In this document: positions 12,635-48,747 of the stretch, in pieces
Position numbering within the stretch: position 1 is the stretch's first letter
Layout of the letters: every line of letters begins with the position of its first letter
DNA from: Ptychodera flava
Lineage: Eukaryota; Hemichordata; Enteropneusta; Ptychoderidae
Direction of reading: 5' to 3'
NCBI RefSeq assembly: GCF_041260155.1
Contig: NC_091947.1
Location: 38,248,532-38,312,531 of the forward strand
Length of the DNA stretch: 64,000 nucleotides
Position numbers and translations under genes: made by a program
Notes under the pieces: generated by a model
Seen by the model: only the letters and a program-made list of their open reading frames with translations
What the model was told of the DNA's origin: nothing
Databases searched by the model: none

Positions 12635-13359
12635 AACCACGATTGGAACTATTTTGGGATAATTGGATTGCAACAAAATACACAAAAAATGCTTAATCAG
12701 TTCAAAATGACATGCTAAATGTGGAAAAATTTTGAATTTTCCTTAAAAAAACGCACATTGTCATAATCATTACTAGTGAAGATTTAAAATGACAGCATAT
12801 TTTTAGTTTTTGTCAGTAGACAACAGATAACCTGATATTTTTCATCAAAATATGCTGAATTGTTTGACTTTCTTTCATGCGTCAAAATGCTGTTATAATG
12901 TCAGTTTGTAATTTTGCTCCCCGCAAAATCTTAAAATTCCACTATTCACATTCACACTGTCACTGAAGAATAATTGACAAGGTAATTCTTGCAGAATTGC
13001 TAACAATCTTTATTTTTCCTACACATAAAATATCATCACACATGACATTTTTCCAATATGGTACAACACATCACATTACTGACAGTAAAAAATGTAAATT
13101 TTACAGTGTAAATTAAAACTGAACATTGACCAGGTGTAAAAATAGAAGAATATCCATGCATAACCATGAATGACTAAATTCTGTCAGGAAAAGAACTTAC
13201 AACAGCATATTTTTCACAGAAGTACATCAAAATGAGTCAAACTCTATTAATTACTGTGAAAACTCAATTCTTCAAAGTTATTTCACACAATCAAGTAAAC
13301 AATCAGTAATTTTTGCTAACTGAAACAATCTAAGTACAATTCTAAAGTCAGGGCATATT

Positions 13360-16020
13360 TCAAATGATCCTCACTGGTAGAAACTTTTAACTATGGCATT
13401 GGTCAGACATCTGTATCTGCAGTCAGGGCATATCAAACATGACCTTCAGTGGTGAAACACTAAACTTTGACATTGGTACAATTGCAATTCTGAAGTCAGG
13501 GCATATTGAAAATGACCATCACTGGAAGACAATCTAAACTATGACATTGTTTTAATTGTTTTTTTAAAATCAAGGCAAATTTAGAATGTCCTTTACTGGC
13601 TGGCTTTGAAATTCTTATTCGAAGTCAGGGTATATTTAAAATGACCGTCACTGGAAGACAATCTAAACTATGACATTGGTCAGACATCTGTATCTGAAGT
13701 CAGGGTCAATTTAAAATGACCTTCACTGGTTGAAACAATAAACTTTGACATTGGTCCAATTGCAATTTTAAAGTCAGGGCATATTTAAAATGACCGTCAC
13801 TGGAAGACAATCTAAACTATGACATTGGTCAGACATCTGTATCTGAAGTCAGGGTCAATTTAAAATGACCTTCACTGGTTGAAACAATAAACTTTGACAT
13901 TGGTCCAATTGCAATTTTAAAGTCAGGGCATATTTAAAATGACCGTCACTGGAAGACAATCTAAACTATGACATTGGTCAGACATCTGTATCTGAAGTCA
14001 GGGTCAATTTAAATGACCTTCACTGGTTGAAACAATAAACTTTGACATTGGTCCAATTGCAATTTTAAAGTCAGGGCATATTTAAAATGACCGTCACTGG
14101 AAGACAATCTAAACTATGACATTGGTCAGACATCTGTATCTGAAGTCAGGGTCAATTTAAAATGACCTTCACTGGTTGAAACAATCAACTTTGACATTGG
14201 TCCAATTGCAATTTTAAAGTCAGGGCATATTTAAAATGACCGTCACTGGAAGACAATCTAAACTATGACATTGGTCAGACATCTGTATCTGAAGTCAGGG
14301 TCAATTTAAAATGACCTTCACTGGTAGACACAATAAACTTTGACACAAGTAAAATTGCAATTCTAAAGTCAGGGCATATTTAAAATGACCGTCACTGGAA
14401 GACAATCTAAACTATGACATTGGTCAGACATCTGTATCTGAAGTCAGGGTCAATTTAAAATGACCTTCACTGGTTGAAACAAACTTTGACATTGGTCCAA
14501 TTGCAATTTTAAAGTCAGGGCATATTTAAAATGACCGTCACTGGAAGACAATCTAAACTATGACATTGGTCAGACATCTGTATCTGAAGTCAGGGTCAAT
14601 TTAAAATGACCTTCACTAGTAGACACAATAAACTTTGACACAAGTAAAATTGCAATTCTAAAGTCAGGGCATATTTAAAATGACCATCACTGGAAGACAA
14701 TCTAAACTAGGACATTGGTCAGACATCTATCTGAAGTCCGGGTCAATTTAAAATGACCTTCACTGGTTGACACAATAACTTTGACACAAGTAAAATTGCA
14801 ATTCTAAAGTCAGGGCATATTTAAACTGACCGTCACCGGAAGACAATCTAAACTATGACATTGGTCAGACATCTGTATCTGAAGTCAGGGTCAATTTAAA
14901 TGACCTTCACTGGTTGATACATAAACTTTGACACAAGTAAAATTGCAATTCTTAAGTCAGGGCATATTTAAATGACCATCACTGGAAGACAATCTAAACT
15001 ACGACATTGGTCAGACATCTGTATCTGAAGTCAGGGTCAATTTAAATGACCTTCACTGGTTGAAACAATAAACTTTGACATTGGTCCAATTGCAATTCTA
15101 AAGTCGGGGCATATTTAAAATGACCGTCACTGGCAGACAATCTAAACTTGGACATTGGTCAGATATCTGTATCTGAAGTCAGGGTCATTTAAAATGACCT
15201 TCACTGGTTGACACAATAAACTTGGACACAAGTAAATTGCAATTCTAAAGTCAGGGCATATTTAAAATGACCATCACTGGAAGACAATCCAAACTAGGAC
15301 ATTGGTCAGACATCTATCTGAAGTCAGGGTCAATTTAAAATGACCTTCACTGGTTGACACAATAAACTTTGACACAAGTAAAATTGCAATTCTAAGTCAG
15401 GGCATATTTCAAATGACCATCACTGGAAGACAATCTAAACTAGGACATTGGTCAGACATCTGTATCTGAAGTCAGGGTCAATTTAAAACGACCTTCACTT
15501 GTTGACACAATAAACTTTGACATTGGTCCAATTGCAATTCTAAAGTCAGGGCATATTTAAAATGACCATCACTGGAAGACAATCTAAACTATGACATTGG
15601 TCAGACATCTGTATCTGAAGTCAGGGTCAATTTAAAATGACCTTCACTGGTTGACACAATAAACTTTGACACAAGTAAAATTGCAATTCTAAAGTCAGGG
15701 CATATTTAAAATGACCATCACTGGAAGACAATCTAAACTATGACATTGGTCAGACATCTGTATCTGAAGTCAGGGTCAATTTAAAATGACCTTCACTGGT
15801 TGAAACAATAAACTTTGACACCAGTAAAATTGCAATTCTAAAGTCAGGGCATATTTAAAATGACCATCACTGGAAGACAATCTTAACTAGGACATTGGTC
15901 AGACATCTGTATCTGAAGTCAGGGTCAATTTAAAATGACCTTTCTTTGGCTGGCTTTGACATTGGCCCAATTCTAATTCAGAAGTCAGGGCATATTTCAT
16001 ATGTCCTTCACTGGTTGACA
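13360..16020. repeat. 149-bp satellite with two-part higher-order structure
   Basis: About 18 tandem units with a period of 149 bases, for example 13771 to 13920. Each unit has two related halves of 75 and 74 bases. Both halves begin AAGTCAGGG and carry a TTTAAAATGACC and TCACTGG core. They differ after it: one continues GAAGACAATCTAAAC, the other GTTGAAACAATAAAC or a GACACAAGTAAAATT variant. The middle units are nearly identical and the edges diverged, as expected from unequal exchange. It lies downstream of gene 1, beyond its likely poly(A) signal. Confidence 0.95.
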
Positions 16021-16238
16021 CACTAATCTATGGCATTGGTCCAATTCTAATTCACTTGTTGAAAGCTAATTGGTACAATTGTCAGTAATCGATTTAAATT
16101 CTTTAGTCAGGGCATATGTAACATGACCATCATCATATGACAATAGTGGCTCCTTTGTAAAAGTCAAACTCTGTTATGCTGTTTTGAGGAATTTTCATTT
16201 TTTCAATCTTTGTGTACATTTTTTCTTGTATTTGTCCT

Positions 16239-16539: not shown

Positions 16540-16661
16540 TCATAGCTCTTCAGTACCAACAAACTGAGAGACATTGTCACAGAGGATAGCTAATTGGTCC
16601 GATGAATGATCAGTGACGATGCAGTGTCTGCCATTCTTCAAGGATGATATCATTCCATTAC
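16540..16661 (-). CDS. Gene 1 exon J (last)
   Basis: Acceptor TTCACAG, phase 1 in; 40 codons ending in TGA. It encodes NGMISSLKNGRHCIVTDH and then DQLAILCDNV, which fits the strand after the SAM-binding glycine loop of amino-methyltransferases. Ends FVGTEEL-stop. Confidence 0.75.
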
Positions 16662-19600
16662 CTGTGAATGAAACAAATTTTTATTAGTCCATTAAATTTG
16701 AAGAAAATTAAAGGATAGTGTTGTGGAAAGATGAGTGAATTCATATTGTCTTATCAACAAATTCATTAAAAGTCCTGCTGCAACTTTTCACAATATTTTC
16801 ATAATGTTACATGCAATGTACAATTAGTGCATGTAGATAGACATACTATTGGGTATCCATACACATACCGATATTATCAACCTCTGCTAATGACAGAATG
16901 TCGAAATGTGAGCAAAATAATTTTTACGTGGGTGCTGCTCTCCATTAATCAGCCCCCACGGCAAGAGTTGCAACTATGTTGTATGCATGCACTTGTTTAA
17001 AATTGAATTTGTTCACAATTATAGTAAGTATTAAGGCACGAACAGAGGTTGATAGATAATATTTATTTGCACACTCATTAACAATAATGTCAAAAGTTGC
17101 AGCTTTTGGTGCTTTGATGTTATGTTGGATTTATGGGTTATAATACTATATTGTATTTCAGTAATATGAAGGAATAAATCGTATATCAAGTAATTTTGAC
17201 CAAATTAAAAACATACATTTCCTAAATTATCATGTACGCAAAACTATAATTTTTCTTGTGAGAAAGATTAGTTGAATTATTGCAGCACTTGAAGCATTGC
17301 AAAAGAGACCTTTCTCAGCACATGCAGATACAGTAAGGAAAATAAAATGTGTGTGATTCTTGTAGTCTGCCTTGTCCTACAATTGCATTGGCATCTGCTT
17401 TTTTTCGAAAGCACGAAAATGGAACTAAAAGTAATTTATTTATGAGATCCACTGAATATGTGAAGTATCCATCCCCCTCTGTGGCTGAAAGTTTGAATCA
17501 CATGGTCATACGTTCTTTGTGGAGTGTCACAGGACCATATTGTGTCGTTCTTCGGTTGGATGTTGAATTGGATTCTTGTCTTGTGAGCAGTACATAGCCA
17601 CCACCATACACTGTACGGCCTCTATCAGTCCAAATCTGCGGGCTGAAATGTAGAAATAATAATATCTATTATTTTACAAGCCTAAATCTAACTTCAGCAT
17701 TTTTACACTTTATGTTTGTAAATATCGATTACAAAGAGTGCCAAGAATACATTACCCTTTTCCTGCCAAGTTCATATTTCCCCATCAGGTCTAGATCGTT
17801 AAAACTAGTGAAGCACAATATGTAACATTCGGTCATTTTAACAACAAAATTGAACTTTTGAAGACCTTGAAATCACAGATACTGAAAACATTATTTGTAT
17901 GGACTAAAGCTGTTGGAACAGACCAAGCCAAATTGGTGGAAATGCGTATTGTTGTGGCTCAACACTGCTTTTCCCTGAGTTGGCTGATGGGGAAGTAATA
18001 TCGTCTGGCAGGAAAAGGGTTAATTAACCCTTTCACCACCATGGTTTGTCCCAAATCCATTGTTTCTATGGTAAAGTTGGACCTGTATACAGGGAACTGG
18101 GGGTGAAAGGGTTAAATGAATTTCATTTGCTAAATGTATTTGGCAATCTATCTTCATCAGATATTACACAAAATTGACATATTTCCAAAAAACATGCATC
18201 AAACTTGTCAATAAGCACCAACAAGGGTGTGTGTGTTGGTCGTTACACTACATCATGTGGTCTATTTTATGTGTACGAGAAGGAGGGGGAAGAAAGAACA
18301 ATAGGGTAAAAACAGTGATTGCACTTACTTGAGCTACAAGTTTGTACATGACAGAACACAGGTTGCACAGAGACAAAGTTTTTGTCTCTTTTAAATGCCT
18401 GCATAATCTCTCCCATCTCTGATGCTCTGCAGATGACAGCTATGTTAAATGCACTTTGTTGGCAGTCGACATTTATTGCCTTGATGGTAATCATCAGTCT
18501 TTGGATATCACTTGCTGACCATTCCTTGAAAATAAAATAGGAGACAGCTTTAATTCACTATTTGACATCCTGGTAGATTTAAGCATAGACAGTATGATTC
18601 GGGAGTGGAGATTTAGCCGAGTGGTTCTGTCTGTGGCCTCTCAGCTAGGCGACTGATGCCGTATGTTGTGGGTTCGAATCCGATTGAAAACTAGCCGTAT
18701 TAAGTCATGAACATACATGAAACACATGACTAAACAGTCCCGTGTATGTTTATGAGTATAAATATAAAGTGACATGCTAGGTGGCGTAAGGGTTCCAACA
18801 AGCAATGAAACATGAACAATAACAATTTTATAACCATGACATTGAATGAAACACTTATCATAAAATTCAGATAGCCGTTGAGAGTCATGGCTGAGACAGT
18901 AAAAAACTGAGATCTCACTTAACACTTTTCAGTGTAGATGACTCCATATGATGTAAAAGTCATGGCAAAAAGTTTCCCAGCCTATACAACAGATGATTAT
19001 ACCATGTGTATGTGTGGAATTTGGAAGCGAAAAACTATGTCAGGGGGAAATACTATCGGTACGCAAGGACCTCCATACTTATTGATTTCCGTGGCTATGA
19101 CCAAAACACATTAAAAGAAGCAGCTTTGGTTGGTCGTGTTAGTAACAATGATAAGAGTACACTTACTGAAGGCATATCAACCAATGTTAGGTCAATTCCT
19201 CGGAATCCTGGACACTGCTGTTTTAGTGAAGAGGCATTCAGATCAAGCACATCTGCATTGTGGATTGTGAATCCATAGGCGCCATCAGTTGCAAATACGG
19301 CAGTTTTACTCGCATCTTCCTTGTTTTTTTCTAGAATTACTGCTCTTTGGCAAAATGATTCAAACTGTGCTGGTACCCACGACTGTACGATAGGTTTACA
19401 AACTGTTCTAGTTTTTCTCTTGTTGTTTCGTTTGGAAATCTTTGCCTTGCCTCTTCCCAGCCCCCTTCAACACAGCCAGTAATCATGACGAAAAATCTCT
19501 GTACCAGGTCTAATTTCCTCAGTACTGCCGATTCCTTTACTAGCTCTGTAACAGAAATTTCTGTTGAAATTATTTCTTCTAACAGCCATTTCTGATCGTT

Positions 19601-22600
19601 ATTGTTAACCGAAGAAAGTCACCTAATTTTCTGAACGGAATTTCTGGCCTCTTCAATCCTCTCAGTTCAGCAGGCTTGAGATTCTGAGATCTTGTTCGAC
19701 CTTCTTCATACATTGCGAACACTTCCATCATCAATGAAAAATGTCTCATTTTCGCAACAGCACAGCATATCTTCATGAAGAGGGAGTCGGCTTTCTGTGT
19801 CAAGAAAATAATTAGTAATTAACATATCAATTTCATGAGCATGACACTTAACATCATCGATAATTGCGCCAGTGGCTTACTGACAATATGTATGCAGGTT
19901 CACAATATATTATGCGATTAACCGAAGTGTACACAATTAAATTCATGGGTGCTGCCATGCTTTTTGAGTACTTGTGAATAAACAAATATGAAGTGTGCAA
20001 AGTATAACTTTATAACATGCCATTAATAAAATATGTATCTCTATTATTAGCCAGTTAGTATCATAATCCATCTTGTCAATGATATAAAATATTGTTACTA
20101 TCATGCCTAAAGAAAAACAGAAAAAGAGAGAAAACTGCTGTACCTATGAACATAAGTAAGAATGTTGGGATTGAATTTTAGAGAGCATCCTCTGTGTAAA
20201 TAACTTGATGCAAAAATTGCCAGTTTTCAGCCACAATGTCAGTTTTTGGCTTGCAAGTGGAAGTTAGGCAGTGCAGTTACTCAATGGTAATGATGGCACA
20301 GTACATCCCTTGTTAAACACAATAGGTAAGTATGATGGTAAAAATTGCCAATTTATGTCCAACATTTTTACACATTAAACAGAAAATCTATACCTGCAGG
20401 GAGTCTGATATTGTGTATGTGTTTGAACTGTTGTGGTCAGTAGGTAGATTGGCATTTAAAGCAAGTAATGATTAATTCTATTTTATCCTTTACTATTACT
20501 AATGATGAATCAATACAAATAAAATTAAGATCTTAACCCCTGACGTGACACCAAGGGCTGAGTCCTATATGATATTACAAAGCTGGAGATTATCATGTGA
20601 TGTTCTGGTAATACACAGCTTGTCCATATAAGACTGAAAACCTACACAGTGTAGGTTTTTAGTCTTACATTTTCAATATATAACATCAATGTTTATGTAT
20701 CAACTGATACAGTCATTAGTAAACTTACCTCCTTAAGTATCATTGCACATGATTTCTCCCACTGTTCTTCTTTTGCTTCTATGTCTGGCATTTCTTCGTA
20801 TCTATCCCGGCACATTTGAACCTAATGACCTAAACAAGAGGGCATATTACATCTTATCCAACAAAATACATACTAGATACATATTTTACAAAATCATTGA
20901 GCACAATCAATTATCTGAATTACTCATTACTTTTTGTTCAGTCTATCAGACAAAAGTGTCCTGCAAATAAAACTGTCAAATTTCTTACCAAAAGACAACT
21001 GGTATTTGTTTGACTTTACTTGCAATAATAAACTTAACCATTTCAACCAACTCGGACAAAAATGTCCGATGACGTCATAGAGTACCAGGGGGTCAGGGTG
21101 CAAAGGGTTAAAATGTTGTACAACTGTTGGAAACTCAAAACTCTCCTTTAATGTCTCCAGTTTTACTTAAAAATTATATGAGTTCAACAGGAGATGTATT
21201 ATGTAATTGTACTGTCATCAATGCTGTTGTATAATTAGATGGTACTTTAAGGCTTCAATGCACATTTCAACTTACAATAATCTCCAAAATGTCTGACATT
21301 CTGGCTAGAGATATTTTGTTCTATCAGTATCAACAATTTTTTTCTTGTTTAGATATTGCATACTCTTTACACCCAACACTCTGTTCTTGCTAAGTAATTT
21401 CAAATCCATTTGTTGACAATCAAAGTAAGGCACTTCAGCCTTATGGGAATGTATATGTATTGAGGAACGAAGGCTATTTTTTATAACTTACATGGCTTGT
21501 GATGAACAAATTTGTACAATTTTCAAAGCATTTCCAAGTATAATCCCTACTCGTGTATAAGCCCCTGCACTAATTTTGTGTGGAAGGTTTAAAATGAAGT
21601 AGATCTTTGCATAAGCCCCTACGTTTGCTGCACACATACATAAATCAACTGGTAAAATTTCTTTTCAGACCAAAGAAACTGGTGTGAAAAAATGTGAAAT
21701 TAACCTTTCCATGAAGGTAACATAATGTAACATCTGCGCTATTTATGGTCCCTTATTATCATTTGTGAAACTCTGTTGTCCCTTTGTGCAATGGAACAGA
21801 TATACCGATACTCTTAGGTCACAATGCATTTTTCATTTCTATTCTTATTCACAATGTTGCATTTCATCCTCTAAACATTTTTTTGGTTTCCAACAATTAC
21901 TTTTTTTCATCTTTATAGATTTTAACAATCACTATACAAGAATTTCCCATCTATGTTGTTGTTTTCTGAGATCTGGTTACATGAGTCAGTGTTCTCCACA
22001 GCTTAGAAAAACAGATGGATGGCCAATTTACACAACAGTGCATAATTTGCAAATTCTTTTCTTGTGAAAATGTATTCTTATGTGCAGTTATTAACATAAG
22101 AATAAATTGCTCCAAAAACGGAGGGGTGGCCCACCCATAAAAATCCCCTTGTGGAGAACCCTGTGAGTAAAAGATTTTTAAAAAGCAGTTTTGTGTCTCT
22201 GAGGTTATACTTGGAACAGTGCAGTACATCAGACGTGTAAGATAACTCATCCTACCTTCTCTTGAAAGTCATCGAATGATGGAATTCAACAGTTGCATTA
22301 TGTCTATGGGCCAACCACTTCCTCTGTTCATCGCTCAGTCCTGCATAGACAACAGCGAGTCTACTTTTCAGTTCTTTCCGATTTCCATATTTTTCACTCA
22401 GGCGTTTAACAGCAAGGAAAGAATGCTGCCCTCCAATAACCTCATATGTGTAGCCGTTAACCTAGAATAATAATGAAACAGGTTTTTGAAACAGGACAAG
22501 TTAAACATTGCAATAACTGTTCACTTTACATACGTCAAAAGCTCTACTTTGTGAATGCCAATCATTACATACATTTTCTCTTTCTTATCAGAAGTCACCA

Positions 22601-25600
22601 TGAAATTGTTACGCTAACTAAAGAAGTAGTCTCCCCTATCTAGAAATGTTGTGATTATTGCTATTCAAACAGTACAGGGAAATCAACCAAAAAGTCTGTG
22701 GTATATTTAATAAATTTTAACATCATTGATACATGTTTTGACATTCAAACACTAGGTGAAGGATAAGGCACAGAATAAATGTGAATGTGTTTGCTAAGTA
22801 GAGGCCGTATGTCCAAAGATAAAAATATTGTAAATACAGCTAAATGTGTATAGCACATTTTGCATGCATTCATTTCACAGGCATTGAGTTGCATGACACT
22901 GCTTCTGTCTCACATGCAAGTCATGTACATTTCACAGGGAGAAGTTGAAATGTATTTTCATTACATTACCCTTCCATATATTGACCCAGATGTTGTTTAG
23001 ATACATTCTCAACCTGGAAAGTGTTAGGACACAATGCGTGCCAAGCAAACATAGGTAAAGTTCAGTTCCAAGATACTCACATTGGACTCCCTAAAGTTCT
23101 CCTTGATTCATTTTTCAACACAACAATTAATGGTTGATATGCCTCATCAAGGTAATCCTCCATAGCTGCTTCCATTTGTCAACCCATTTGTCATCAGGAG
23201 CCCTTGCTTGCTTCCCTAGTTCCAGTGCGCTGATATCAATTAAAAACGGTCCTTAAGAAAAGACAAACATTACATTGTCATTGGGAAGACAGCAGGATAA
23301 TATACAAATAAGATTTTTCTAATAATTTTTTTATGTAAATGTTTTCATCAAAGTCTGACACACCATACCAAAGATGTGCACAGAAAGACTTCAGTTATCA
23401 TCTGCTAGTACATGGCACTTGTCTTCGATAGAACATCACAGTTTGATATATCACTAATATTTGGTTCATGTTTTGATGGTGAAAGTGTGTCAACTATGGG
23501 TGGACTGTTAACCCACAGAATTCTTATTAAACCAACTGTTCCTACCATCAATCATGCCACTTGAGAAACAACTTAGGATTGGCAAGTACACATAACTTTA
23601 TGTGAATATTCTTGGGTTGTGTAAATGCTTTTTGTGCAGACAATAATATACATGTATGAATAGACTTGTCAAAAAGCTCAGGATTAGTCACCTACTGAAA
23701 TCCCCTTATGATGAGCACTAAAGCTTAAATTAATAACCAATTCAAGTTTATTTCTTTGTCAAAAATCAGCAAGAATTACTCAATTAAACCAATCCTTAGA
23801 ATTAAAATAATCAACAGTAAACACTTTCAAACCATACACTTTTTATAAGGTTAACCAGGAGCTTCATACTGACACTAGTGATGTTTGTCAGCTGCACACG
23901 ACATAAATAATTTAGACATTTTGTTCTTCATACCGCATTGAAGAATGAGCGAGTCTTTCACGAGCTTCTCTTTTCTTGTACTTAACCAAAAAGGTCAGTG
24001 TTGTTTAGTATTTATCTGCACTTTATTTCAAATACCTCAATTATTCCTCTTTGCACTAATTGATATTGACTAGATTTCCTCAAAGAGTGTTGTCTTTCCG
24101 ACAGATAAGGGAAACATAGAGAAATCTTTGTCAAGCTTACCAGTTCCAATGTGGCAGTCCCTGATGCTTTCTTTCATCGATAGCTCCTCCTCACTCATTT
24201 CTTTGTTGAGTTTTTCAGCCTTCTTTTTCTTTGAAAGTGTCGTAGCACTAATTGTTTTGCAGCATCTGTCAATTTTCTCTTCTTTGTGCTTCTTGATAAG
24301 GGAGTATTTGACCTGTGTAATTCACCAAAATAAAGAAATGTTGTATTCAACTCAAAGTAACATATTGGTTTCAATGTCAGCAATAGGTCTCCAGAGATTT
24401 GGACCATTTCCCTTCACATTAATGCTTTATGTTATTACAAATCTTTGACAGACTACCCGTATTACATGCACTTCAGTCTTATATGACTTTGAGCATTATA
24501 TGTACTCTAGCTTTTGCTGTATTTTGTTGGTTGCAACTTGTATTCTCTTTGCTGCTTCATATGTACCAAAGTAGCTTGGTGAATCTCATTGTGTTAGATC
24601 TCTTTGTAGGCTTGGTTACAAAGGACTGGAATGTTTGCATTCATACATGTGCGGTTTCTCTAATTTGGTACCTGAGAAAACTTGTGATTTCATAGTTCTG
24701 TGAAATGTGAACCATGTTTCATTTGATTCCACTGCAAAGGAAGTGTAACAGAAGGTCACTAGTTCAAGGGTACAATGACCATGAATCAAATTACACAAAT
24801 TTAGAAGTTCAAATGGTTAAACTCATGATATGTATGGTCCAAGAATTCTTCAATGAATTGTCATGGGTTTTGTTTTCATCAATTGTGTTTTAGTCTCTCA
24901 GATGTCGATGTACTTACATACTAGCTGTGGGACTCATTACATCATCATCATCATCTGGTGTAGACTCTATGCCATTACTGGAACTATGACTAATATTTTC
25001 TGTTGTTTCTGATTCACCCTCTGGCTCTGAGTCATCTTCACTGGAATCGTTGGTCAGGTTACTCACACTTGATGCAGGTGAAGATGTGTCTTCCTTACCG
25101 GACAATACTGAATTAAAATGATCACAGAACTCCTGTGGACTTCTAAGGTCTCTGAATTGGCGACACATGTCATTCTTGTTCCACACAAAGGAAGAACGTA
25201 GGAGCTTGTATGGATGATCATTTTTGTCAGTAAAGTAAACCTGAAAAAAAAAATATTATCATTATGGTTGATGTATTTGGCAAATGCTGAATACTTATAT
25301 ACTGATTTATCAATCAATGCTAACAAACCATGGTCCAACCATCATGAATATTTTCACTATTCAGACCTCATCACTTTACTCAAAGTGAGTAGTTTGCATT
25401 AATTGATGAAATACTTTGCTGCAAGAGTGAAATACTTAACAAGTTGCTTCATTTTTCGGCAATGTCCATCTCCACTGTCAGAGAAAACTTTGCCTAAATC
25501 ATAAACTGTATCATTGAAACAATAAGGTGTGAAAAGCCAGTCTAACCCTATTCCTGCCAAGTCCATATTTCACCATCACCTCAAGATGGTTAAATTAATG

Positions 25601-27452
25601 AAACACAACATATTCCATATATTGTGTATTTTAAAAAAATACTGTGCATTTGAAGGTGGTTGAAAACATAAATACTGTAAACTTGATTTTTTGGGACTAA
25701 AGATGCTATATAGACCAAGCCAACCAGGTGAAAATACGTCATGATTTGGCTCAATACCGCTTTAACTAACTTGGCTGATGCACAAGTGAGGCTACCCACA
25801 ATTCTCCATGATCTGTACACACGGAGATCACTCACTGAAGCAAATTTCTTCCGTACACAGAAAAACTCTGTCCAAATTTCAAAATTCCCGCAACATAGTT
25901 CTCATAATCATAATTTTCTGATTCTCACTGTGAATAATGAGACGAATAACCCCTTTCTGCGGAGGAGATAGCAATTTTGTAATTTTGTCGACATAGATTT
26001 TTGACAGCCATACACCATATTTTCAAGGAAACTAAGGGAATAAGTTGCATCTGTGTTGGCAAATAAAACGTATTGACTGATTTTTAATGTAGTAATGGCG
26101 TGTACACATCAGACCAACAGACGTGTATCTACACACATCCATGCACGGGCCGCGAAGCTACCGCGGACTTGCAGCCAACTAGTACTATTATTTCAAGTAA
26201 CTGTGGTATAGAACTTCCAGAAAACTCGAGGGTCTTTGACAATGATTGTGGGTCGAACAACGGTCATGCCATAGCATTGCTGCGAAAACAAGCACTGCCA
26301 CTCCTTGACATGTTCTTTTGGGAGTGGGGTAGCCACTCAAATGACCAAGCTACAACCGAGTGGCAAAGGCTACGGATTCGCAGCAACCCATAGCACAGCG
26401 TCGCGTCGTCACCGCCAGGGTGCGGTTAAGAGGATATTTCGTGTCTGAACGAATGTGTTTAAATCAGTCGAAACGACTGAAGGTTGACATAGTGGATGAA
26501 TTCCGAGTGCTTGTCTATCATAAAAAATCTTACCAATTACTTTTGAAGCATCTTCAACACAGCACTGGTTGAATGAACACCTGCGACTATGCCTTGCGAG
26601 ACGATGCTTTGGGCAACGGCAAATGCTCACGGGAGTGACCTATAAAGTGACCTTCAATATATACCGTAAACCGGTATGTTGCCAGTTGTCGCAAACCAAT
26701 CTAGGCTACTGTGTAACAGTGATCCTTGGCCCCGGGTGTTTCTTTTACTTTTTTCCCTCACGGTATATCATGTATGAATAGTTGACCATAACAATTCGAT
26801 GTTGTTATTCCGGATAATTCAGACGCCTTTAGCCTAGCCTGTCCGCAATTCGCACGGTTGCCGCCGATAGATCACAGTCACCTGTGATGTATTCCGCTCT
26901 GCGTCCATTATGCTCTCCGTATAGACGTGTGTACATATGCCTGAGAAAAAGATTTCTCAGACATATGTACACATGTCTATGGGGCGCATAGTCCCAGAGC
27001 TGAATAGATCACATGTGACTGTGGATAGATACCTGGATCGGGCCCGGGGTCTCCTGCGCATTATTATTCTTTGCCTCCAAACTTCCCTGAGGGAAGACAT
27101 CTCCAAAGATTCTTCCTTTGGATCAGCGACGGCGCCGTTGAAATACTTTATTTTATTTTAAACACAGCGCACTTCGAAAATGCAGATATCATGAAGGGAA
27201 TAATCCAACAAGACATCACAGTGCATTGCCAAACGAAGCCTGATAAAACATGAAACAAATAACAACACAGTACTTAACTTACCTTGATTGCGTCATCGCC
27301 GATACCAGAGTATGCCTTGAATTTCGCTACACTGCTGTATACAGCGCTCGAGCCTCCTTTCTTTCGGAGCCTTGACGGGTTTTCTCGATAATCGATATGA
27401 TGAAGATTGAGTCGTCTGACTTCTCGAACCACCAACCACGAGCACGAGTCAT
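16540..27452 (-). CDS. Gene 1: ParB/sulfiredoxin-like plus amino-methyltransferase-like protein, ten exons
   Basis: Ten exons with GT...AG introns join into about 760 codons. Residues about 1-90 are an unrecognised N-terminal module (LLRSSFVWNKNDMCRQF). About 90-165 are Ser/Asp/Glu-rich and probably disordered. About 165-222 are Lys-rich with KKRK. About 223-340 resemble a ParB/sulfiredoxin fold: FLIDISALEL, then PLIVVL, YEVIGGQHSFLAVKRL and LSDEQRKWLAHRHN. About 545-758 resemble a permuted N4/N6 amino-methyltransferase: IHNADVLDL, LTLVDMPS where DPPY is usual, EAVQCMVVAMY, then WILHIFSNGM where an FxGxG motif is usual, and NGRHCIVTDH. ParB-methylase fusions are known in prokaryotes and phages; this gene has animal introns. 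Signature residues differ, so catalysis is doubtful. Several frame interruptions, almost all explained by missing bases, break the model (exons A, C, D, E, G, I). The domain names are my inference from motifs. Confidence 0.72.
17453..17642 (-). CDS. Gene 1 exon I
   Basis: Phase 1 in and out. Reads RRFGLIEAVQCMVVAMYC, then after a frame change of two missing (or one extra) bases near 17530 continues as TPQRTYDHVIQTFSHRGG and WILHIFS. The order matches the end of the methyltransferase target region followed by the SAM-binding strand. The donor A|GTGGAT is weak, but it is the one that keeps frame with exon J. Confidence 0.62.
17755..18019. mobile_element. piggyBac-like MITE in gene 1 intron
   Basis: About 265 bases. 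Terminal inverted repeats read CCCTTTTCCTGCCA at both ends and continue with a shared TTCCCCATCA. It is flanked by ATTA on the left and TTAA on the right, fitting TTAA target preference. A diverged relative lies at 25543-25790. Confidence 0.75.
18028..18111. mobile_element. 84-bp TTAA-flanked micro-MITE
   Basis: Starts CCCTTTCACC and ends GGTGAAAGGG, with TTAA on both sides. It abuts the previous MITE: two TTAA tetramers lie back to back at 18020-18027. No coding capacity. Confidence 0.75.
18329..18524 (-). CDS. Gene 1 exon H
   Basis: Phase 0 in, phase 1 out, 65 codons without interruption: EWSASDIQRLMITIKAINVD, then FNIAVICRASEMGEIMQAF and FVSVQPVFCHVQ. It follows the DMPS motif directly, as the helix-strand pair after motif IV does in amino-methyltransferases. 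Canonical GTAAGT donor. Confidence 0.82.
18604..18925 (+). mobile_element. tRNA-derived SINE
   Basis: The head carries Pol III promoter boxes: box A TAGCCGAGTGG at 18614-18624 and box B GGTTCGAATCC at 18671-18681. Their spacing fits a Ser- or Leu-type tRNA with a long variable arm. The acceptor stem does not close, so this is not a functional tRNA gene. The unrelated body runs on for roughly 200 bases; its 3' end is uncertain. It lies in the intron between exons H and G, opposite in strand to the gene. Confidence 0.7.
19167..19794 (-). CDS. Gene 1 exon G (largest)
   Basis: Phase 0 in and out; about 210 codons. Begins KADSLFMKICCAVAKMRHFS and continues LKPAELRGLKRPEIPFRK, KWLLEEIISTEISVTELV, RKLDLVQRFFVMITGCVEGG, RTVCKPIVQSWVPAQFESF and TAVFATDGAYGFTIHNADVL, ending PGFRGIDLTLVDMPS at a GTAAGT donor. 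Two single-base deficits interrupt the frame, at a T run near 19620 and an A run near 19450. The first half is likely the helical linker between the ParB-like and methyltransferase-like parts. Confidence 0.78.
19860..20577 (+). repeat. 730-bp dispersed repeat, oldest copy
   Basis: Matches 58652-59382 throughout, in the same orientation, and the reverse complement of 43229-43962, but it is clearly more diverged. Runs from GCGCCAGTGGCTTACTGAC to CACCAAGGGCTGAGTCCTATAT. It lies in the intron between exons G and F. Confidence 0.8.
20625..20668. repeat. Short hairpin in gene 1 intron
   Basis: AAGACTGAAAACCTACAC and its reverse complement meet at the centre with one extra T, forming a stem of about 18 pairs. 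Function unknown. Confidence 0.6.
20729..20821 (-). CDS. Gene 1 exon F
   Basis: 31 codons, phase 0 in and out: VQMCRDRYEEM, then EAKEEQWEKSCAMILKE, with acceptor CATTAG and donor GTAAGT. Charged helical segment after the ParB-like domain. No interruption. Confidence 0.78.
21038..21107. mobile_element. 70-bp TTAA-flanked micro-MITE (degenerate)
   Basis: Bounded by TTAA at 21034-21037 and 21108-21111. Ends CCATTTCAACC and GGTGCAAAGGG form an imperfect terminal repeat like that at 18028-18111. Confidence 0.5.
21987..22163. mobile_element. hAT-like MITE
   Basis: Left end CAGTGTTCTCCACA and right end TGTGGAGAACCCTG are inverted repeats with one mismatch; the right end has the CAGGG start common in hAT elements. 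Flanks share TGAGT but no full 8-bp duplication, so the copy is old. It lies in the intron between exons F and E. Confidence 0.55.
22256..22461 (-). CDS. Gene 1 exon E: ParB-like core
   Basis: 69 codons: VNGYTYEVIGGQHSFLAVKR, then RLAVVYAGLSDEQRKWLAHR and HNATVEFHHSMTFKR. The order strand, GGQH turn, helix, strand, LSDEQ helix, HN fits the core of ParB/sulfiredoxin proteins; most ParB proteins have G[ED]RR or GxxR where this has GGQHS. One base appears to be missing in the A run just before the donor. Confidence 0.8.
23081..23251 (-). CDS. Gene 1 exon D: start of the ParB-like domain
   Basis: Phase 1 in. PFLIDISALELGKQARAPDD and KWVDK, then after a one-base deficit in an A run near 23172, MEAAMEDYLDEAYQPLIVVL and KNESRRTLGSP. 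A second single-base deficit (G) is needed at the donor to keep frame with exon E. The layout matches the first strands of ParB-type domains. Confidence 0.7.
24141..24312 (-). CDS. Gene 1 exon C, Lys-rich
   Basis: Phase 2 in. Reads MSNTPLSRSTKKRKLTDAAK, then in a shifted frame SKKKKAEKLNKE, MSEEELSMKESIRDCHIGTG. One missing A in the run after GATGCTGC would join them. KKRK and SKKKK could be nuclear localisation signals. Donor GTAAGC. Confidence 0.65.
24918..25240 (-). CDS. Gene 1 exon B, acidic Ser-rich region
   Basis: 107 uninterrupted codons, phase 0 in and 2 out: VYFTDKNDHPYKLLRSSFVW, NKNDMCRQFRDLRSPQEF, then a long low-complexity tract with SSEDDSEPEGESETTE and DDDDDVMSPTAS. The start is set by the acceptor after a poly-T tract. 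The first 35 residues look like a conserved structured module; the rest is likely a disordered linker. Confidence 0.82.
25543..25790. mobile_element. Diverged relative of the 17755 MITE
   Basis: Starts CCCTATTCCTGCCAAG and follows the 17755-18019 element (GACCAAGCCAA, GGCTCAA, CTTGGCTGATG). Its right terminal repeat is lost. Confidence 0.6.
26868..27033. repeat. Long imperfect hairpin in first intron of gene 1
   Basis: The inner arms TAGACGTGTGTACATATG and CATATGTACACATGTCTA flank a short centre around CTGAGAAAAAGATTTCTCAG. Outer arms with GATAGATCACAG and CTGTGGATAG extend the stem to about 80 bases per side with mismatches. Probably a foldback MITE about 250 bases inside the first intron. 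Confidence 0.75.
27283..27452 (-). CDS. Gene 1 exon A (first coding exon)
   Basis: The frame that enters exon B reads WLVVREVRRLNLHHIDYREN, PSRLRKKGGSSAVYSSVAKF and KAYSGIGDDAIK, ending at an AAG|GTAAGT donor. It has no ATG of its own. The ATG at 27452 (A at -3) opens MTRA one base out of that frame, so a single missing base within about ten codons would join it. An alternative is that the exon starts at an acceptor-like CTGACTCAG at 27463, with an unseen upstream exon. Confidence 0.6.
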
Positions 27453-36704: not shown

Positions 36705-38723
36705 GAACATGGCATGAAACTTACTTTTGCAGGTCAGCTTGATAATTTTATTTTGTGAAAGCAAGGGCTATTTCTGCTTGTTGCCATCTGTTCAGGCAGA
36801 ATAAAGCCATGTTGTATTGTTTTTTCATTCGTTTTAGTCAATTCTCTTGTGTTCTTGCCACAACTCTAGGCCTATAGAAACTTTTGTAGAAATTGCCGCG
36901 CCTCCCTCAATAATTGAATGTAAAGTCACCCCCCCCCCATTTCCACTGACCCTCACTGTAAAAAATAATGTTCCCTTCATATATGCTATACAGTTTCTCA
37001 TCCAAGAGCTCGCACCTGTTATACCTTGAATACTAAATTCAGCTTGACCCCGACATAGCCGGCACTGGATATCGGTGTGTACGTTGTTGTTCTTCACAAT
37101 GATGTGCCAGGCTTATCACGACTTCTCAACAAAAGTATATTTTACATAAAGAGGTTCAGAAAATCGCCCCAATAATGAATGTTTACTCTTTTCCAGTTTC
37201 TATCATTGTTGGACAAGGATGCCAGAGTTTGCCATAAAATTGACCACGGCCACTTCTTATAAATGTACGTCGTGATGGTAACCATAATTTATTATCCATT
37301 TTGTCTGTCAAAGCATGCATACACCTGGTAACAGAGCTACATTCCAAAATGAGCCTCAATTTGAACAAATGTATCACATAAACTTTTGAAATATATACTA
37401 CGGAAATTATGTAGCATATACATATACAGATGCTGCATTTTGCTTATTTAATTTGCCTTTCTTTAAAAAAAAAAAACCATGGAAATTTGGCTTTGTGGGG
37501 TGACTTGTCTCTGTTGACAATGTACAAGTCGTAGCTGCGTAGGCCTACAGGAAATCATTTCATGTGTAGTAACTGGAATCATTTCAGTCTTAACACAATT
37601 CGGGTCCGTTAAAAAACTAGACTGTATAAGAGCACTCAAAATGGCTACCAAATAACCTAACTTTATTCATAATTTCCTGTGTCAGCACCCTGTACTATAC
37701 CTGGAACAAACTTTATCACTAAAATTGGTAGTGGTTCTTTAAAGATTGAGATCTCGATGATTTCTCGTCTACACATCTGTGATTTGCTGTACCGTGTAAA
37801 AAGATGCTTCTTTTTTCTTTCAAACTTTCCAGCATTCTGGAGCAGATGCTGTTATCCTGTACTTCCATGTAAATTTGGAGCAGCATTAAATTTCTCTATT
37901 CGTTTTGTCATGGCATATAAAGAAAAGCATTGTGACAGAAAAAACAGGAAATATTGGCATTTCAGCATGCGCATGAGGGCGAAAAAATCTTCTCAGAAAG
38001 GAAATGAAAAAGAGATGCGGTTGACAGAAATAAATCAAGATGACGCAGCCAGGAAGAAGGAATGATGCTTCAGAGTAAAACTTCTAACCAACCCCCCCCC
38101 CCCCCCACCCCCCGCATATCACATCGTTCACTGTGTTACTGGGTTATCCGGGCAAAGAAAGATTGTCTACTGTCAGGCGAAGTGATGAATTTGGCGAAAT
38201 TGTTTCTCGTTCAAAGTTGGCACCGACCACAGGCTTCCGATCAGAAGGCGAACCGCAAAACCGTCACTGGTGCAATATACATGTATCAGTGATGGTTTGG
38301 CGGCTCGCTTGCATTTATTCGAAAGCAAGTGGCACCGACCATCGATAAATTTTCATGTTAAGGTGTGTCTATAGTGCGATCTTTTCTTTTTCCGCCGAGA
38401 CGCGATCAATGTTGCGCTGCCCTTTCACGGTCCCTCCGGGGCCGTACTAATATACTGTAGTTCTGTAGTTCATGCCACATCGAGCGGGGACTGCTGTTTA
38501 CATACATGACATTATGGTAATTTTATGCAAATTTCATCCAATATCAAATACAAATACACCTATAACCTTCACGCTGGTATACGCGTACGTATGCTACAGA
38601 TCCAAACGGGGATCAAAACCAGCCAAAAATAAATCGCGTCTGACTAGCTCCTGTATATAGACACGCGTGAAGAAACATACCAACAATTTCCTAACCGATA
38701 GCCAAAGAAGAACCAATCGCAAT

Positions 38724-39611
38724 ATGTTACACATATGCAGAACTGGGTATCCATTCAGCGACACGCTTTCAAGCGGCGAGGCACCCTCGGCACCTTTCGG
38801 CAGAGGTCATCTTGTTGATGACACATCGATACTTTCGTCTCATCAACCAACAGAATCCAGCGATTCATCATCACTGTCTACTCACCAAGAAACGGAAACA
38901 AGCCACACTAATGAACTATCTACACATTGTGACAGTGAGAACGCCAGTGAGTATGCATCAAGTTCAAATTCATGTGACGATAGTATGAGAGTACGGCAAA
39001 CAAAGAGACGCCGTCTATCACAGCCACTCAGAAACTATTCCATTTTGTACCAGGTCACATGTTGCAAAAACGTATGCATACAAGATTTTTCTCCCGCTGA
39101 ATTAAAAGATGTAGAACTCACATTCAAGGACATTGGCAATGAAGTGAAACAGAAACAATATATCCTCGACAACATTAGACAACATTCCGTTCTCAGTATG
39201 AAAGGGAAACGAAAGCACACGGAGACTGATTTCCGCATTCTCGGCAAGCCTGTTTGCGTAAAGGCATGGCGTGAAATGCACAACATCAGTCAGAAGCGGT
39301 ACGAAAATTGTGTACGCATGTACAAGGATGGTGTTATCAACGTAGTACACGGTAATGCCGATCAGATAAAAATGAAGAGCAAAACGACAATGGCGTTGAC
39401 GTGGATGCGCTTCCTGTTCGAGCGAATTGGTGATTGGATGCCGCACAAAACTGAAGTTCACCTGCCGAAAACATCATCAAAGAAAATGTTCTATCAGAGA
39501 ATGTGCAAAGAGTTTGAAGAGGACTATAACATAAAACCAGAGGACAACATAAGCTATGAATATTTCACTACAATTTGGGCCGAGCATTTACCCGAATTTA
39601 AGATTCCTAAG
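38724..39611 (+). CDS. Gene 2 exon 1
   Basis: 296 codons. The frame opens upstream at a GTG at 38667, but the first ATG is at 38724 with A at -3, which I take as the start. Contains the Ser-rich tail, TKRRRLSQPL, and YENCVRMYKDGVINVVHGN, ending EFKIPK at AAG|GTGAGC, phase 0. Further 5' non-coding exons are possible. Confidence 0.85.
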
Positions 39612-42600
39612 GTGAGCCACGGTCTTACAACATACATGTATTGCTAAATTACTGCTGATGGCAGTCTCAAAATTCAACAAGTGACTGCTCTATTTGATCG
39701 CTTGCAAACAATATCCGCATTGTTTTGGTGTTTACACAATAACAAATTATGCATAATAGTCGCTGCACATTGTTATGACTTGTGCTTATACTTTAATGTC
39801 CTGAACTAAATCATATGGAGGGAAGTACAATGAAAAGACTTCTGTCATAAAATTACAATTAAATTTGTGGTATCGATGCATTAGACTATTCAAACCTTAC
39901 TAAACGTGTTGGCACCAACTTAGTTGGGGCTTTGGTAGTCACTTTATAATCTAAATTTATGTAATGATAGTGAACTGAAATGGAGATCAACTGGAGTGAA
40001 CAAATAGCGATAACTTAAATTAGCATATGAATACTTTTGTATATAGAGCAGGTTTGCAAAATGACTTAGGAATTTTCCTAACTCGATGATTAGAATAAAT
40101 TACCAGGGTAATGCAACTAGCAACTGCAGGGCCAGGTGCAGGCATGCATTGTCCCCCCCCCCCCCCACACACACACAAACACAACTTCTGAATCATTCGA
40201 AGGGAAGGGAAGGCCGTAGGTTTTGATCATTTTGTGATTCCTCGTAGTTTTGATTGATATATAAGTATTCAAAATGTGATCACAATGCAATTGCATTAGT
40301 CTGGCCACTACTACCTCCATGATGTTGTTAACTTGCCATGATGTATGGGTCACAGTCTTACAACACAAAAAATATGAATGAACATATCAGTGCAGGGTAT
40401 TTTTCTGCATTTACTCAATATGACAGCACTAATTGGAGTTTTCCATCTTGTTTTCACTCATTCATATTCATTCACAGACTTCAGAATTTGTTGAGTGTAG
40501 CATATGTGCACAGTTGAAAGAAGACCGAAACCGAGCTAAGACAAAACAGAAAAAAGAAATCATTTCGGAATTGCTGAAAAAACATTTTGTCCAAGTTGAG
40601 TAAGTATTTTGTGTATGATAATTTTCATGGAATGATAATATTATGTGCTGTACATGTGTCCTGCCTTGTGAATATTGTTAATTGGTTCCAATGTTTATGA
40701 TGATATATGCTGTTTTCAGGACTGAAATTTAATGGAAAATTCTCAGGTACGTCACTAGTGCAGACACATAGATTTGAAACAGGGGAGACCAGTATGATAG
40801 GGGTCCCTTCATTCATTATATTGTTGAAAGCTGCTAAATTTGATAATTTCAGTGCTTTGCTTTTTTGTTTATGAACTGCTCTTCTTGATCTATTTTGCAT
40901 CATACTATAATAAACCAAATGCCACTATTCTTCCTGTCAAATTTGTCCATCTCTGTGTAAGAAGTAAATTTTGTTATATTAAGAAATGAGTTCAAGTCCA
41001 CTTCAGAATTCAATTTCCTAGAGAATGTATGTGTACTGTAGTTATTTGCTGTATACCATTCAAGTTATTCATTGTTTCATGGATAACATTGTAAGCATGT
41101 GAGCTAAATCAATCATGAAGAGAGACAAAGTGTTCAGAGTTCTATCCTTGGACAATACTCTATCTTGACTCTAGTATTATATGTCGTCATAATGCACTAG
41201 TTTGTTTGAAGTAAGTTGATTGAATGACTGTGATACTGATATGCCATTGACCAAAACAAATGCCAAACGTAACCAACATACAACCTCACAAACTAATAAA
41301 TGGCCATACTATGCATTTGCAAAATAGTTTTTGTTTTTTTAACCCCGTACCTGCACGCATACATGCATGTGTATTGGCTTTGGTATTCACAGTTGTACCT
41401 GTGTCTTTTGATAGCAGTGAAAAGCTTCATTGTTACCCAGAAGGTTGATTTTGTGAAGTATTGAGAATGTTGATATTGTATCTTTTATGTATATAGGACA
41501 GAGAGAAAGGTGTATCATGCAACCCGAGAACAGGCAAGATTTGAACCTGATGAAATAATGTGTATAATTCAGGATGGAATGGATCAGAAGAAAACAGCAA
41601 TCCCAAGACTAGTAAATGAGGATAAGATGACAAGCTTGCTTGCCCGAATACGATTGCATATTACCGTGAGTTGTTGTCAGCTTTTGTCCCATAGGCGATA
41701 TGCCACACCAAGCAATGGATATTAAGCAATAAACACCAAGTAAAATACTTTATGTACGTTCTTGTAGATTTATGTTTATGAATGTATGGCACACGACACT
41801 AGCGGTATACATCCCAAAGATCTAATGCGGTGTTCCGTAATTGTACAAGAACGTATATCCAGTATTTTACATAGGGAAAGCACACCCAGTGACGGCATAC
41901 CATGAGATTTTGATCAGTTCACAACCTATTTGCACAAGGAAGAGCCATTGTATACAAGAAGTGAACTGGTCAAAATGAGTGGTTTACTATTGCTAGATGT
42001 GATTTATTGCTATTATATCACAACAGTATATTGGAATTCTTGCACTGATGTCAGAAAAGGATTTTTGCTCTTGCCGAAAGCTCATGCAGGTGCCAAACAT
42101 GATATATCACGTATATACCATGGTTCTTTTCATTCTCAACCAATCTGATTGCTACATTTGTGCCATCAATATGCTGGTATGATATAATGCAATATATTGA
42201 CCAGTTTCCAATATATATTCGCAAACAATGACAAGTGCTAATCTGGAGTGAAGCGGTCAAAACCTAGTGGTATATCCATTGCTCAGTTGTCGCTAACACA
42301 ATTTTCTCCATGCTATTGTCCAATAATAATGCAACTGTGCAGATGCCAGTATGACATGTCTCTGAAAGTGCACAAATTTGTGTTTACAACACAAACGATT
42401 GTAGAAGTATGTGGGCCACAGGATGAAAGTTCTAATGTTAATTAGATATATTCATGTAACACAGTGTTTTAAGGAGGAAATCTGCATAAAAATCTTCCCC
42501 TACTGTCTGTTGTTATTTCAATGGGAATATAAGAAGTCATGGGTGCACTGTGGAACTGCTGATGATGCATGTCATTGTACACTGAGGGTAGTTTTTGAAT

Positions 42601-45600
42601 GCTGGTATAATAAACAGTGGCTATAACCATCTATTTGAGGTAAACACTGTCTGTTTCACTCAAGGTGTAGCACATGTTTTTGAAACTTGCATTCTATGAC
42701 AAAAACAATATTTTTTTTAGTTTGTTAAGATTTTCAGACATCATGTAATTGAATGACAAGGGCCTCTTTTTAACATGGTAAAATAAGGAGATTCTTGGAT
42801 CAAACAAACACGTTCGATCAATAGCTGACTTTTTGACATTTGTCCAGATTTACAAAAATTAAGCATTTATAGTGGAAATTTCTGCTTGTAATGCAGTACC
42901 GTGTCGGTGTGTATCCTGTAACGACTTTAGAACCATTGAACATATCTCCTTTGTACCGGTACATGGATGCAACCTGGACTGTTTATGAGATTTTGTTGGA
43001 AACAAAACTTATCATTATGTAAAATTAAATAAAAAATATGACAAAATTATATACTCAAGAATTATAGGTCAAGCTGATTTTATGACTTTGTAATTATTTT
43101 TCATGTATGAGAAAAAAGATTCAGAAAAACTCCTGTTGCATCAGCCAGTCCATGATGGCAATACTGGTATCATTCCTCTGTTTACCTCAATCATGACTCC
43201 AAAGGGATATATGATTATTCAGATGATACTAATATTATATAGGGCTCAGCCCTTGGTGTCGCGCCAGGCGTTGAGATTAAAAATGTAATTTGTATCGATT
43301 CATGATTAGTAATCATAAAGGATAAAATAGAATTAATTGTTACTTTCTATATACGTTTGTACAAGTATGACCGGTTTAGGGCCTACCCTCTAATGACAGT
43401 TCACGTACATGATGTCGGACCCCTTTAGGTATAGATTTTCTGTTATGTGTAAAAAGTTTGACATAAATTTGCAATTTTTACCATGATTACTATCTATTGT
43501 GTTTAACAAGGGACGTATTGTGCCATCATTAACTTTGCAATAGTAACTGTACCGCCCAACTTCCGATATTGTAAGCTGAAAACCAGCGTTACTTCTAAAA
43601 ACGGGTAAATTTTGCACATAGTTATTGACACAGAGGGCGCCTTTCTAAGATTCAATCCCAGCATTCTTTGCAAATGTTCTCGTTCATATGCACGACAGTT
43701 TTCTCTCTTCTTTTAATTTTTAGGCATGATAAGAAATTTTGTATCAGCGACAGGGTGGATAATAATAATTACTCGCTAATAAAAAAGATATTTTATTAAT
43801 GGCATGTTATAAAATAATAGAGAGCACGTTTCGAATTTGTTTATTTACGAGCACTCAAAAAACATGGCGGCGCCCCCGAAAGAAGGGTACACTTCCGGTT
43901 ACTCGCATAGTATATTATGAATGCGCGCATGCGTAGTCAGTAAGCTGCTGGCGCGACTATTACAAGGGAGGAATAATGAATGGGGAGAGGAGGCTGTGTG
44001 TGATTTTTATGATTGCTCAGTAATTTTATTTTATGTTATATCGCTCATATTGCATGTCTGCATGTCATATAAATGTCATTGATTCTAATAGTCAAGTACA
44101 GTGATTGTTAAATAATGTATGAAATAATTCTCCCAATATTTTTTCTTTTCTCCAAAATACAGGCAATATTATCCATACTAATGTACCAGGTGGTAAAATA
44201 ATACCGGCTTATGTTGACCTGTTGAACTATCCACACGACAGCAACCTATCCATGCACCTGCTGCTGCAAACATTGTTTGACAACCGAGCCCGTTTATCCA
44301 GATGTTTATTTACTCAATTAGACAACTGCTATCGTGAAATAAAAATCGATACATGTTAAGTCTTGCTCATGTGTTGGTGCAGTACAAGGTATTTGATATG
44401 GTGAGTTTATTTAGTAAACATGTTACTTTAAATAGATCCCTCATATTAAAGCTCCAGAAGCTGTATCTTTTGGCTATTTTTTTTCAGAACTTTTGTTTTG
44501 TGGTTTCCCTAAACTTTCTGCATTGAATGCCTAAACTGTAATTTAATGCCAAGTATTTAGCATATCAACACAATCTATATGAGTGTAATCTGTATTGTTA
44601 TTGTTGAAAACTGTTTTCAAGTCCAGACTAGAATTCATTTGTAAACAGTAAGCAATGATCACTACACACATACAAGCTGCATTGACCCAAAAAACACCTG
44701 AAATTTCTGCATGACAAATGGATTTTGGTCAAACACTGTAGTTGATATACAGAAGCAAATACTGAAACTGAAAAACTTGATACAAGTTACAGCTTATGTA
44801 CCTTTAAAATAGACAATGAGTTTAAACGGGTGTGATTATACCTGTAGTGTAAAACTTCAAAGGGAGGTTCAAAGGTTGATTTTTACATAGCTTTTGGGTC
44901 GCTTATTCTGGAAAAAGCCATTTCCCCGCGATTTCTTTGCCATATCACATGATGAAAGCGCCAAGCTTTTCACTTTCTCTCCATGATCCAAATAAATTGA
45001 GTTGAAAAGCCCTAAACTACAACTTCCACTACTATTTTTATCTGTTTTTGTAAAAAATTGCATGAGGTATGAATGGTGAAAATGGCTTTTCGGAATAAGT
45101 GACACTAAAGGCAGCACATACGCAAAATCAGCCTTGGTGAACTTCCCCTTTAATTTCAAATCAGGCACAGAGTTATCAAGATATTTCCTTATCTCTATCC
45201 TCTATGGAAAATGGTAAATTAAAGTGAAAGAATACAATTTCCATGTGTTTGAATGGTCACTATTTATTCAGTGATGTATCCTTCACAATCACAGGTTGAC
45301 CTTCATTTCCTACCGGTCGGTCATACTCACGAGGATATTGACCAGTTGTTTTCCTGCATCAGCAGACACTTGAAGAAGACAAACATTTATACAATGGATG
45401 GTAAGTTTTAATTTAAAGGAGTGACATGATTTGCTACAAACACCAGTATAACCCCCTTGCATTAAGATTATGCATTCATGATATTGTACAAAATGAGAAA
45501 ACTACCATATAGGTTTCTGATAAGACGGCAGGTGTCTGATACTAATATTGTAATTTCAGCATTAACTTTCCTCAGATTGAGTTTTTTCAAGTCACTTAGG

Positions 45601-48600: not shown

Positions 48601-48713
48601 ATAACAGGAGGGCTGGAGGAATTGTGATTGAAATCTTATTTTTTTTCAGATCCCCCCCCCTCAATACCCTTAACAATTTTCAAGCTCCCCGTCTATATGA
48701 TCAAAAATTTTAA

Positions 48714-48747
<34 letters not shown>

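Follow-up and report, generated by a model that had tools for sequence, protein, structure and literature searches.

A candidate ParB-methyltransferase gene with altered signature residues in the hemichordate Ptychodera flava

A stretch of 64,000 nucleotides from the enteropneust Ptychodera flava (assembly GCF_041260155.1, contig NC_091947.1, positions 38,248,532 to 38,312,531), hereafter called the window, contains on its minus strand, at 27452-16540, a multi-exon gene whose predicted product would join a ParB-like domain to a domain related to N6/N4 amino-methyltransferases. The explanation that I tentatively favour, at a little less than an even chance, is that this is a diverged, probably catalytically dead ParB-methyltransferase gene of mobile-DNA origin. 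The strongest evidence is the convergence of two profiles, one of ParB domains and one of methyltransferases, on a single gene, with both matches on one strand and in the expected order.

Profile evidence for the two domains

Convergence of the profiles was assessed without joining exons, on the 932 stop-to-stop open reading frames (ORFs) of at least 35 amino acids found by six-frame translation of the window. With hhalign, the ORF of exon E5 (exons are listed in Table 1) ranked first for the ParB profile, scoring 26.0 as against 17.6 for the next, and that of E10 ranked first for the methyltransferase profile (27.4, next 25.4). E10 was also first for the latter profile with HMMER, at 11.9 bits and an expectation value (E) of 0.0051, the next ORF giving 3.4 bits and E 1.9. 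The two top ORFs thus belong to the same gene and strand, and follow each other in the order found in phage and bacterial fusions.

The ParB domains used for comparison, 198 in all, came from 80 viral contigs, 80 bacterial contigs and further loci, and the wide profile was built from the 53 of them that were less than 70% identical and at least 65 residues long. Against this profile, the E3-E5 string, taken as a single sequence, scored 25.9 over 77 of 96 columns, a value matched by none of 400 shuffles; for comparison, the middle piece of the gene scored 10.9 and the methyltransferase piece 17.1. When the ParB piece was spliced faithfully, with X at the frame breaks, it scored 28.4 over 49 columns (0/250 shuffles as good). 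The ParB-like domain proposed by an earlier, sequence-only reading of this DNA is supported by the wide-profile matches and by the hhalign rank of E5, and its support in the spliced gene can be called good. The arginine of the GxxR active-site motif, present in 198/198 of the collected domains, is replaced by serine (GGQHS). According to excerpts of PMC5512222, the ParB/sulfiredoxin superfamily typically has a strongly conserved arginine in its active-site pocket.

The methyltransferase profile derives from the 127 of the 198 ParB loci that have a motif IV downstream, a set thus selected for this motif, of which 27 were kept at less than 65% identity. The faithfully spliced methyltransferase piece scored 27.4 (0/250 shuffles as good), and 28.4 with a second profile (1/250); E10 alone, with no join, scored 20.5 (0/250). 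As a control, the ParB piece was run against the methyltransferase profile and scored 15.9, which 47/250 shuffles equalled. The string NDTIWSCDTPQRTYDHVIQTFSHRGGWILHIFSNGMISSLKNGRHCIVTDH can be aligned in order to the final part of the domain in ParB-linked methyltransferases. Both methyltransferase signatures are altered. Where the pattern places motif IV, (D/N/S)PP(Y/F/W), the gene has DMPS; at the place matching motif I, FxGxG, which occurs somewhere downstream of ParB in 118/127 fusions, it has FSNGM. With the faithful splice, Pfam returned no family up to E 10, PF01555 included. The amino-methyltransferase-like C-terminus of the earlier reading thus keeps moderate profile support in the spliced gene, from the shuffle tests and the rank of E10, and finds no Pfam match.

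An intact motif I (FSGNG) was considered and dropped, as its junction glycine is incompatible with canonical E10/E11 splicing, which gives WILHIFS-NGM. The scores obtained with the extra glycine were discounted accordingly: Pfam E values of 0.021-0.032, which do not reach the cut-off, and profile scores of 38.9 and of 42.2, one shuffle having reached 38.4 in the test that gave the latter.

Exons, coding signal and frame breaks

The gene has ten exons if 19794-19167 is taken as one continuous exon (E7/8), and on this understanding the exon count given previously holds. All donors and acceptors chosen for it are GT/AG. The peptides quoted previously, YEVIGGQHSFLAVKRL, LSDEQRKWLAHRHN, GIDLTLVDMPS, WILHIFS-NGM and NGRHCIVTDH, were all found where they had been placed. 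Some ends are ambiguous: the ATG at 27452 is in a frame different from that of the remainder of E1, E2 may end at 24918 (GTAAGT) or at about 24942 (GTAATG), and two successive frames of E3 each give a plausible reading. Searched with tblastn against the window, the pieces of the gene matched their own exons only.

Table 1. Positions of the exons of the candidate gene and of neighbouring features in the window
Feature	Position	Strand	Remarks
E1, N-terminal exon	27283..27452	-	Donor AAG/GTAAGT, phase 0; codon-usage test
E2, acidic Ser/Glu/Asp linker	24918..25240	-	Codon-usage test
E3, Lys-rich segment	24141..24312	-	Donor CTG/GTAAGC, phase 1
E4, ParB-like domain, first part (GPFLIDIS ... YQPLIVVLKN)	23081..23251	-	Two frame breaks
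E5, ParB-like core (YEVIGGQHSFLAVKRL ... AVVYAGLSDEQRKWLAHRHN)	22256..22461	-	GxxR arginine is Ser; profile matches; one frame break, close to exon end
E6, segment C-terminal to ParB core (VQMCRDRYEEMP...)	20729..20829	-	Codon-usage test
E7/8, middle region, then methyltransferase-like start; C-terminal GIDLTLVDMPS, motif-IV-like	19167..19794	-	Two frame breaks
E9, methyltransferase-like middle (EWSASDIQRL ... VFCHVQT)	18329..18524	-	Codon-usage test
E10, NDTIWSCDTPQRTYDHVIQTFSHRGGWILHIFS	17453..17642	-	Ranks first in the window for the methyltransferase profile; one frame break; phase mismatch with E9
E11, remainder of motif I region, (S)NGM...NGRHCIVTDHSSDQL, plus stop codon	16540..16661	-	Profile test; fails codon-usage test
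Divergent gene with DUF7869 (PF25273)	38661..62887	+	Pfam matches
Tandem array, 74-base unit (149-base double unit)	13284..16144	+	Close behind the gene, on its 3' side
Diverged units related to the 74/149-base array	63751..64000		Opposite side; run past the window end

Codon usage was trained on 604 codons, all of them from four pieces of the opposite-strand neighbour. With stop codons scored, the claimed frame ranked first of six in 12/14 pieces, a count that owes much to stop codons in the other frames. When stops were excluded, it was first in 7/14, which remains more than expected both from a one-in-six rate (P about 0.004) and from open control segments, 61/400 of which ranked first (P 0.0024); E11 came last of the six frames in this version of the test.

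The splice phases, described previously as consistent, agree straightforwardly at five junctions (E1/E2, E3/E4, E6/E7, E7-8/E9 and E10/E11). At E4/E5 and E5/E6 they match only given frame breaks within an exon, joining E2 to E3 requires a weak donor or an additional frame break, and at E9/E10 they clash, one base being carried where two are needed. The in-exon frame breaks number six (Table 1), or seven if E1 starts at the ATG at 27452. Every frame change is from f to f-1, as expected from one missing base, and no stop codon was seen in the pieces beyond those tied to the breaks; given this uniform direction and the lack of other stops, base-skipping errors in the assembly fit better than decay. 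An exon of the DUF7869 gene near 44335 also seems to be one base short, a break of the same type, when judged against the reading expected for the family.

The most serious competitor, rather unlikely in my estimate, is that the gene is a dead copy, a pseudogene standing alone or within a decayed transposon, from which no protein is made. Decay keeps some plausibility because six or seven breaks fall in about 2.28 kilobases (kb) of exon here, whereas the pieces of the neighbour, some 2.2 kb in total, show one; the mismatch at one junction and the changed signature residues point the same way. Against a pseudogene stand the one-base-missing type of all the breaks, the neighbour's presumed break of that type, and the codon usage that still marks many of the frames.

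Several results weigh against the favoured explanation. The claimed frame was not first in 2/14 pieces with stops scored and in 7/14 without. E5 was only second for the ParB profile with HMMER, at E 2.3 among the 932 ORFs, and the ParB piece was not significant (21/300 shuffles as good) with a narrow phage profile, for which 52 of the 80 viral loci had a fusion ORF, three loci (L003, L010 and L011) were removed and 24 were kept at less than 85% identity. The DMPS-containing half of the methyltransferase domain was not significant alone either (88/300 shuffles as good), so that labelling DMPS as motif IV relies on the pattern. No convincing match was found in Pfam, PHROGs or PDB sequences, and querying Pfam, PHROGs, NCBIfam, PDB, phages and viral contigs with single sequences yielded no usable hit; an NCBIfam hit to a model of a c-di-GMP (cyclic diguanylate) phosphodiesterase (E 3.3e-4, 19.4 bits for a cut-off of 461) was taken as spurious. 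The predicted structures of E5 and the methyltransferase start had pLDDT (predicted local distance difference test) values of 51 and 49, unusable for recognizing a fold.

Another competitor is that the resemblance is due to chance, the gene encoding an unrelated eukaryotic family whose protein contains ParB-like and methyltransferase-like peptides by coincidence. That every library match stays under its cut-off, and that faithful splicing leaves the methyltransferase evidence moderate only, would suit this explanation; that two independent profiles pick the same gene from 932 ORFs, in fusion order, argues against it. I consider it distinctly unlikely.

Two sequences located in introns of the gene are recorded here. 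A tRNA-promoter-like sequence, GGTTCGAATCC, lies at 18605-18690 in the intron between E7/8 and E9 and is perhaps a short interspersed nuclear element; ARAGORN found no tRNA at 18605-18690, a 35-base piece of this region is single-copy in the window, and Rfam and tRNA scans were empty. A dispersed repeat, several hundred bases long, is present in three copies (19942-20526, 43227-43962 and 58652-59382), one of which sits in an intron of the gene.

Relatives and possible role

The ParB-methyltransferase combination is already known in eukaryotes as transposon cargo. Excerpts of a 2025 paper (PMC12477816) describe a ParB-like plus methyltransferase gene as an accessory gene of a brown-algal transposon, and cite green and red algal cases; in Sola1-1_Ec32 of Ectocarpus, the accessory gene with both domains is oriented opposite to the transposase. 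Compared by description only, the gene studied here resembles the algal one in being eukaryotic, in having a ParB-like domain and an amino-methyltransferase in one protein and in having a neighbour on the opposite strand (the transposase in the alga), and differs from it by its DUF7869 neighbour and its changed signature residues. Given these algal cases, the origin first proposed for this gene, in which an animal lineage captured a phage fusion, is only one of several possible ones.

With the 127 phage and bacterial fusions, such as Bce_0392 of Bacillus cereus (described in excerpts of PMC5512222), the gene shares the order ParB then methyltransferase. It aligns with these fusions along motif I and the stretch preceding it, and in the GRxC segment. 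The fusions differ from it in being single ORFs that keep GxxR and, in most cases, FxGxG, and that have DPPY, a motif for which they were selected.

Bacterial-type amino-methyltransferases are rare in animals, N4CMT of rotifers being one example. As proposed for the present gene, N4CMT of bdelloid rotifers is a bacterial-type amino-methyltransferase captured by an animal and joined to another domain; in contrast to it, N4CMT is an active enzyme with SPPY and a chromodomain, and the paper that describes it (PMC8885841) nowhere contains the word ParB. Changing SPPY to APPA abolishes the methylation activity of N4CMT (PMC8885841). On the grounds of this result and of the altered residues at the three signature sites (GxxR to GGQHS, (D/N/S)PP(Y/F/W) to DMPS, FxGxG to FSNGM), the protein, if made, is probably not a methyltransferase. 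No case of an animal ParB-methyltransferase was recognized among the papers listed by searches of an open-access library; two works cited in PMC12477816, a 2011 chapter (Iyer, Abhiman and Aravind) and a 2025 Bostrychia paper, may cover one.

The protein would consist of an acidic and lysine-rich N-terminal region, a ParB/sulfiredoxin-type domain and a C-terminal relative of the ParB-linked N6/N4 amino-methyltransferases of phages and bacteria. I infer that the gene came from mobile DNA, either as an accessory gene of the algal-transposon sort or as a relative of the phage fusions, and that its product lost catalysis and binds DNA or a partner. If functional, the protein most likely acts non-catalytically, the ParB-like part and the methyltransferase fold together holding DNA or a partner, and transposon DNA held in this way would be marked, tethered or shielded. 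There is precedent in methyltransferase subunits that have lost catalysis and act as binding platforms, such as METTL14. If the algal-transposon kind of ParB-methyltransferase does reach animals without its chemistry, accessory proteins may be useful to an element or its host by binding alone. Bacterial-type amino-methyltransferases in animals also bear on the debated N6- and N4-methylation of animal DNA.

Neighbourhood of the gene and the transposon question

The divergent gene with DUF7869 lies 11 kb from the ParB-methyltransferase gene, and its exon pieces are near 38661-39647, 41497-41665, 44163-44400, 45295-45400, 53307-53578 and 62492-62887, pieces of it matching DUF7869 with E values of 4.2e-8, 2.6e-12 and 1.6e-11. 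Judging by its pattern, it may be a DDE transposase or a transposase-like protein. No paper in the open-access library searched contained the term DUF7869.

Repeats related to the tandem array that adjoins the 3' end of the gene recur at the far end of the window. With a profile of the array unit, the best match outside the array was at 16421-16375 (E 4e-5), followed by 63877-63843 (E 0.0071). Both of these are inverted; inside the array there was also a partial match, at 13565-13602. When the part of the array at 13601-15000 was compared with the window, the last 250 bases gave the best of 2405 segment-and-strand scores (37 and 34 on the two strands, for a median of 13), and the next best, 32, fell in a dispersed repeat near 59.1 kb. 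Array-like units are also present in dispersed repeats near 59.1 and 43.3 kb. No inverted ends turned up in the 25 longest of 99 inverted pairs, and a blast comparison of the two sides gave no convincing ones.

A transposon longer than 47 kb may be present, though this is unproven. The fuller proposal, of a giant animal transposon of this size that carries subterminal tandem repeats, a divergent DUF7869 transposase and a non-catalytic, DNA-binding ParB-methyltransferase, or alternatively of the same protein adopted by the host as a chromatin factor, I regard as unlikely. That the gene encodes a working DNA amino-methyltransferase which marks the DNA of its own giant transposon, as proposed for the algal elements, is the least probable explanation: the two domains shared with the Sola1-1_Ec32 accessory gene (PMC12477816, in excerpt), the DUF7869 neighbour and the far-side repeats as best match outside the array speak for it, and are opposed by DMPS and FSNGM standing where DPPY or DPPF (selected for) is found in the 127 fusions and FxGxG in 118, by the result of the search for inverted ends, and by the array-like units in the dispersed repeats.

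Two further repeats were noted in the window. Two clusters of 106/107-base tandem repeats, mutually inverted, occupy 33277-34709, and a 26-base minisatellite (TTATACATGGGAGTCTATGGACTGCC) at 117-486 is read through by several overlapping ORFs.

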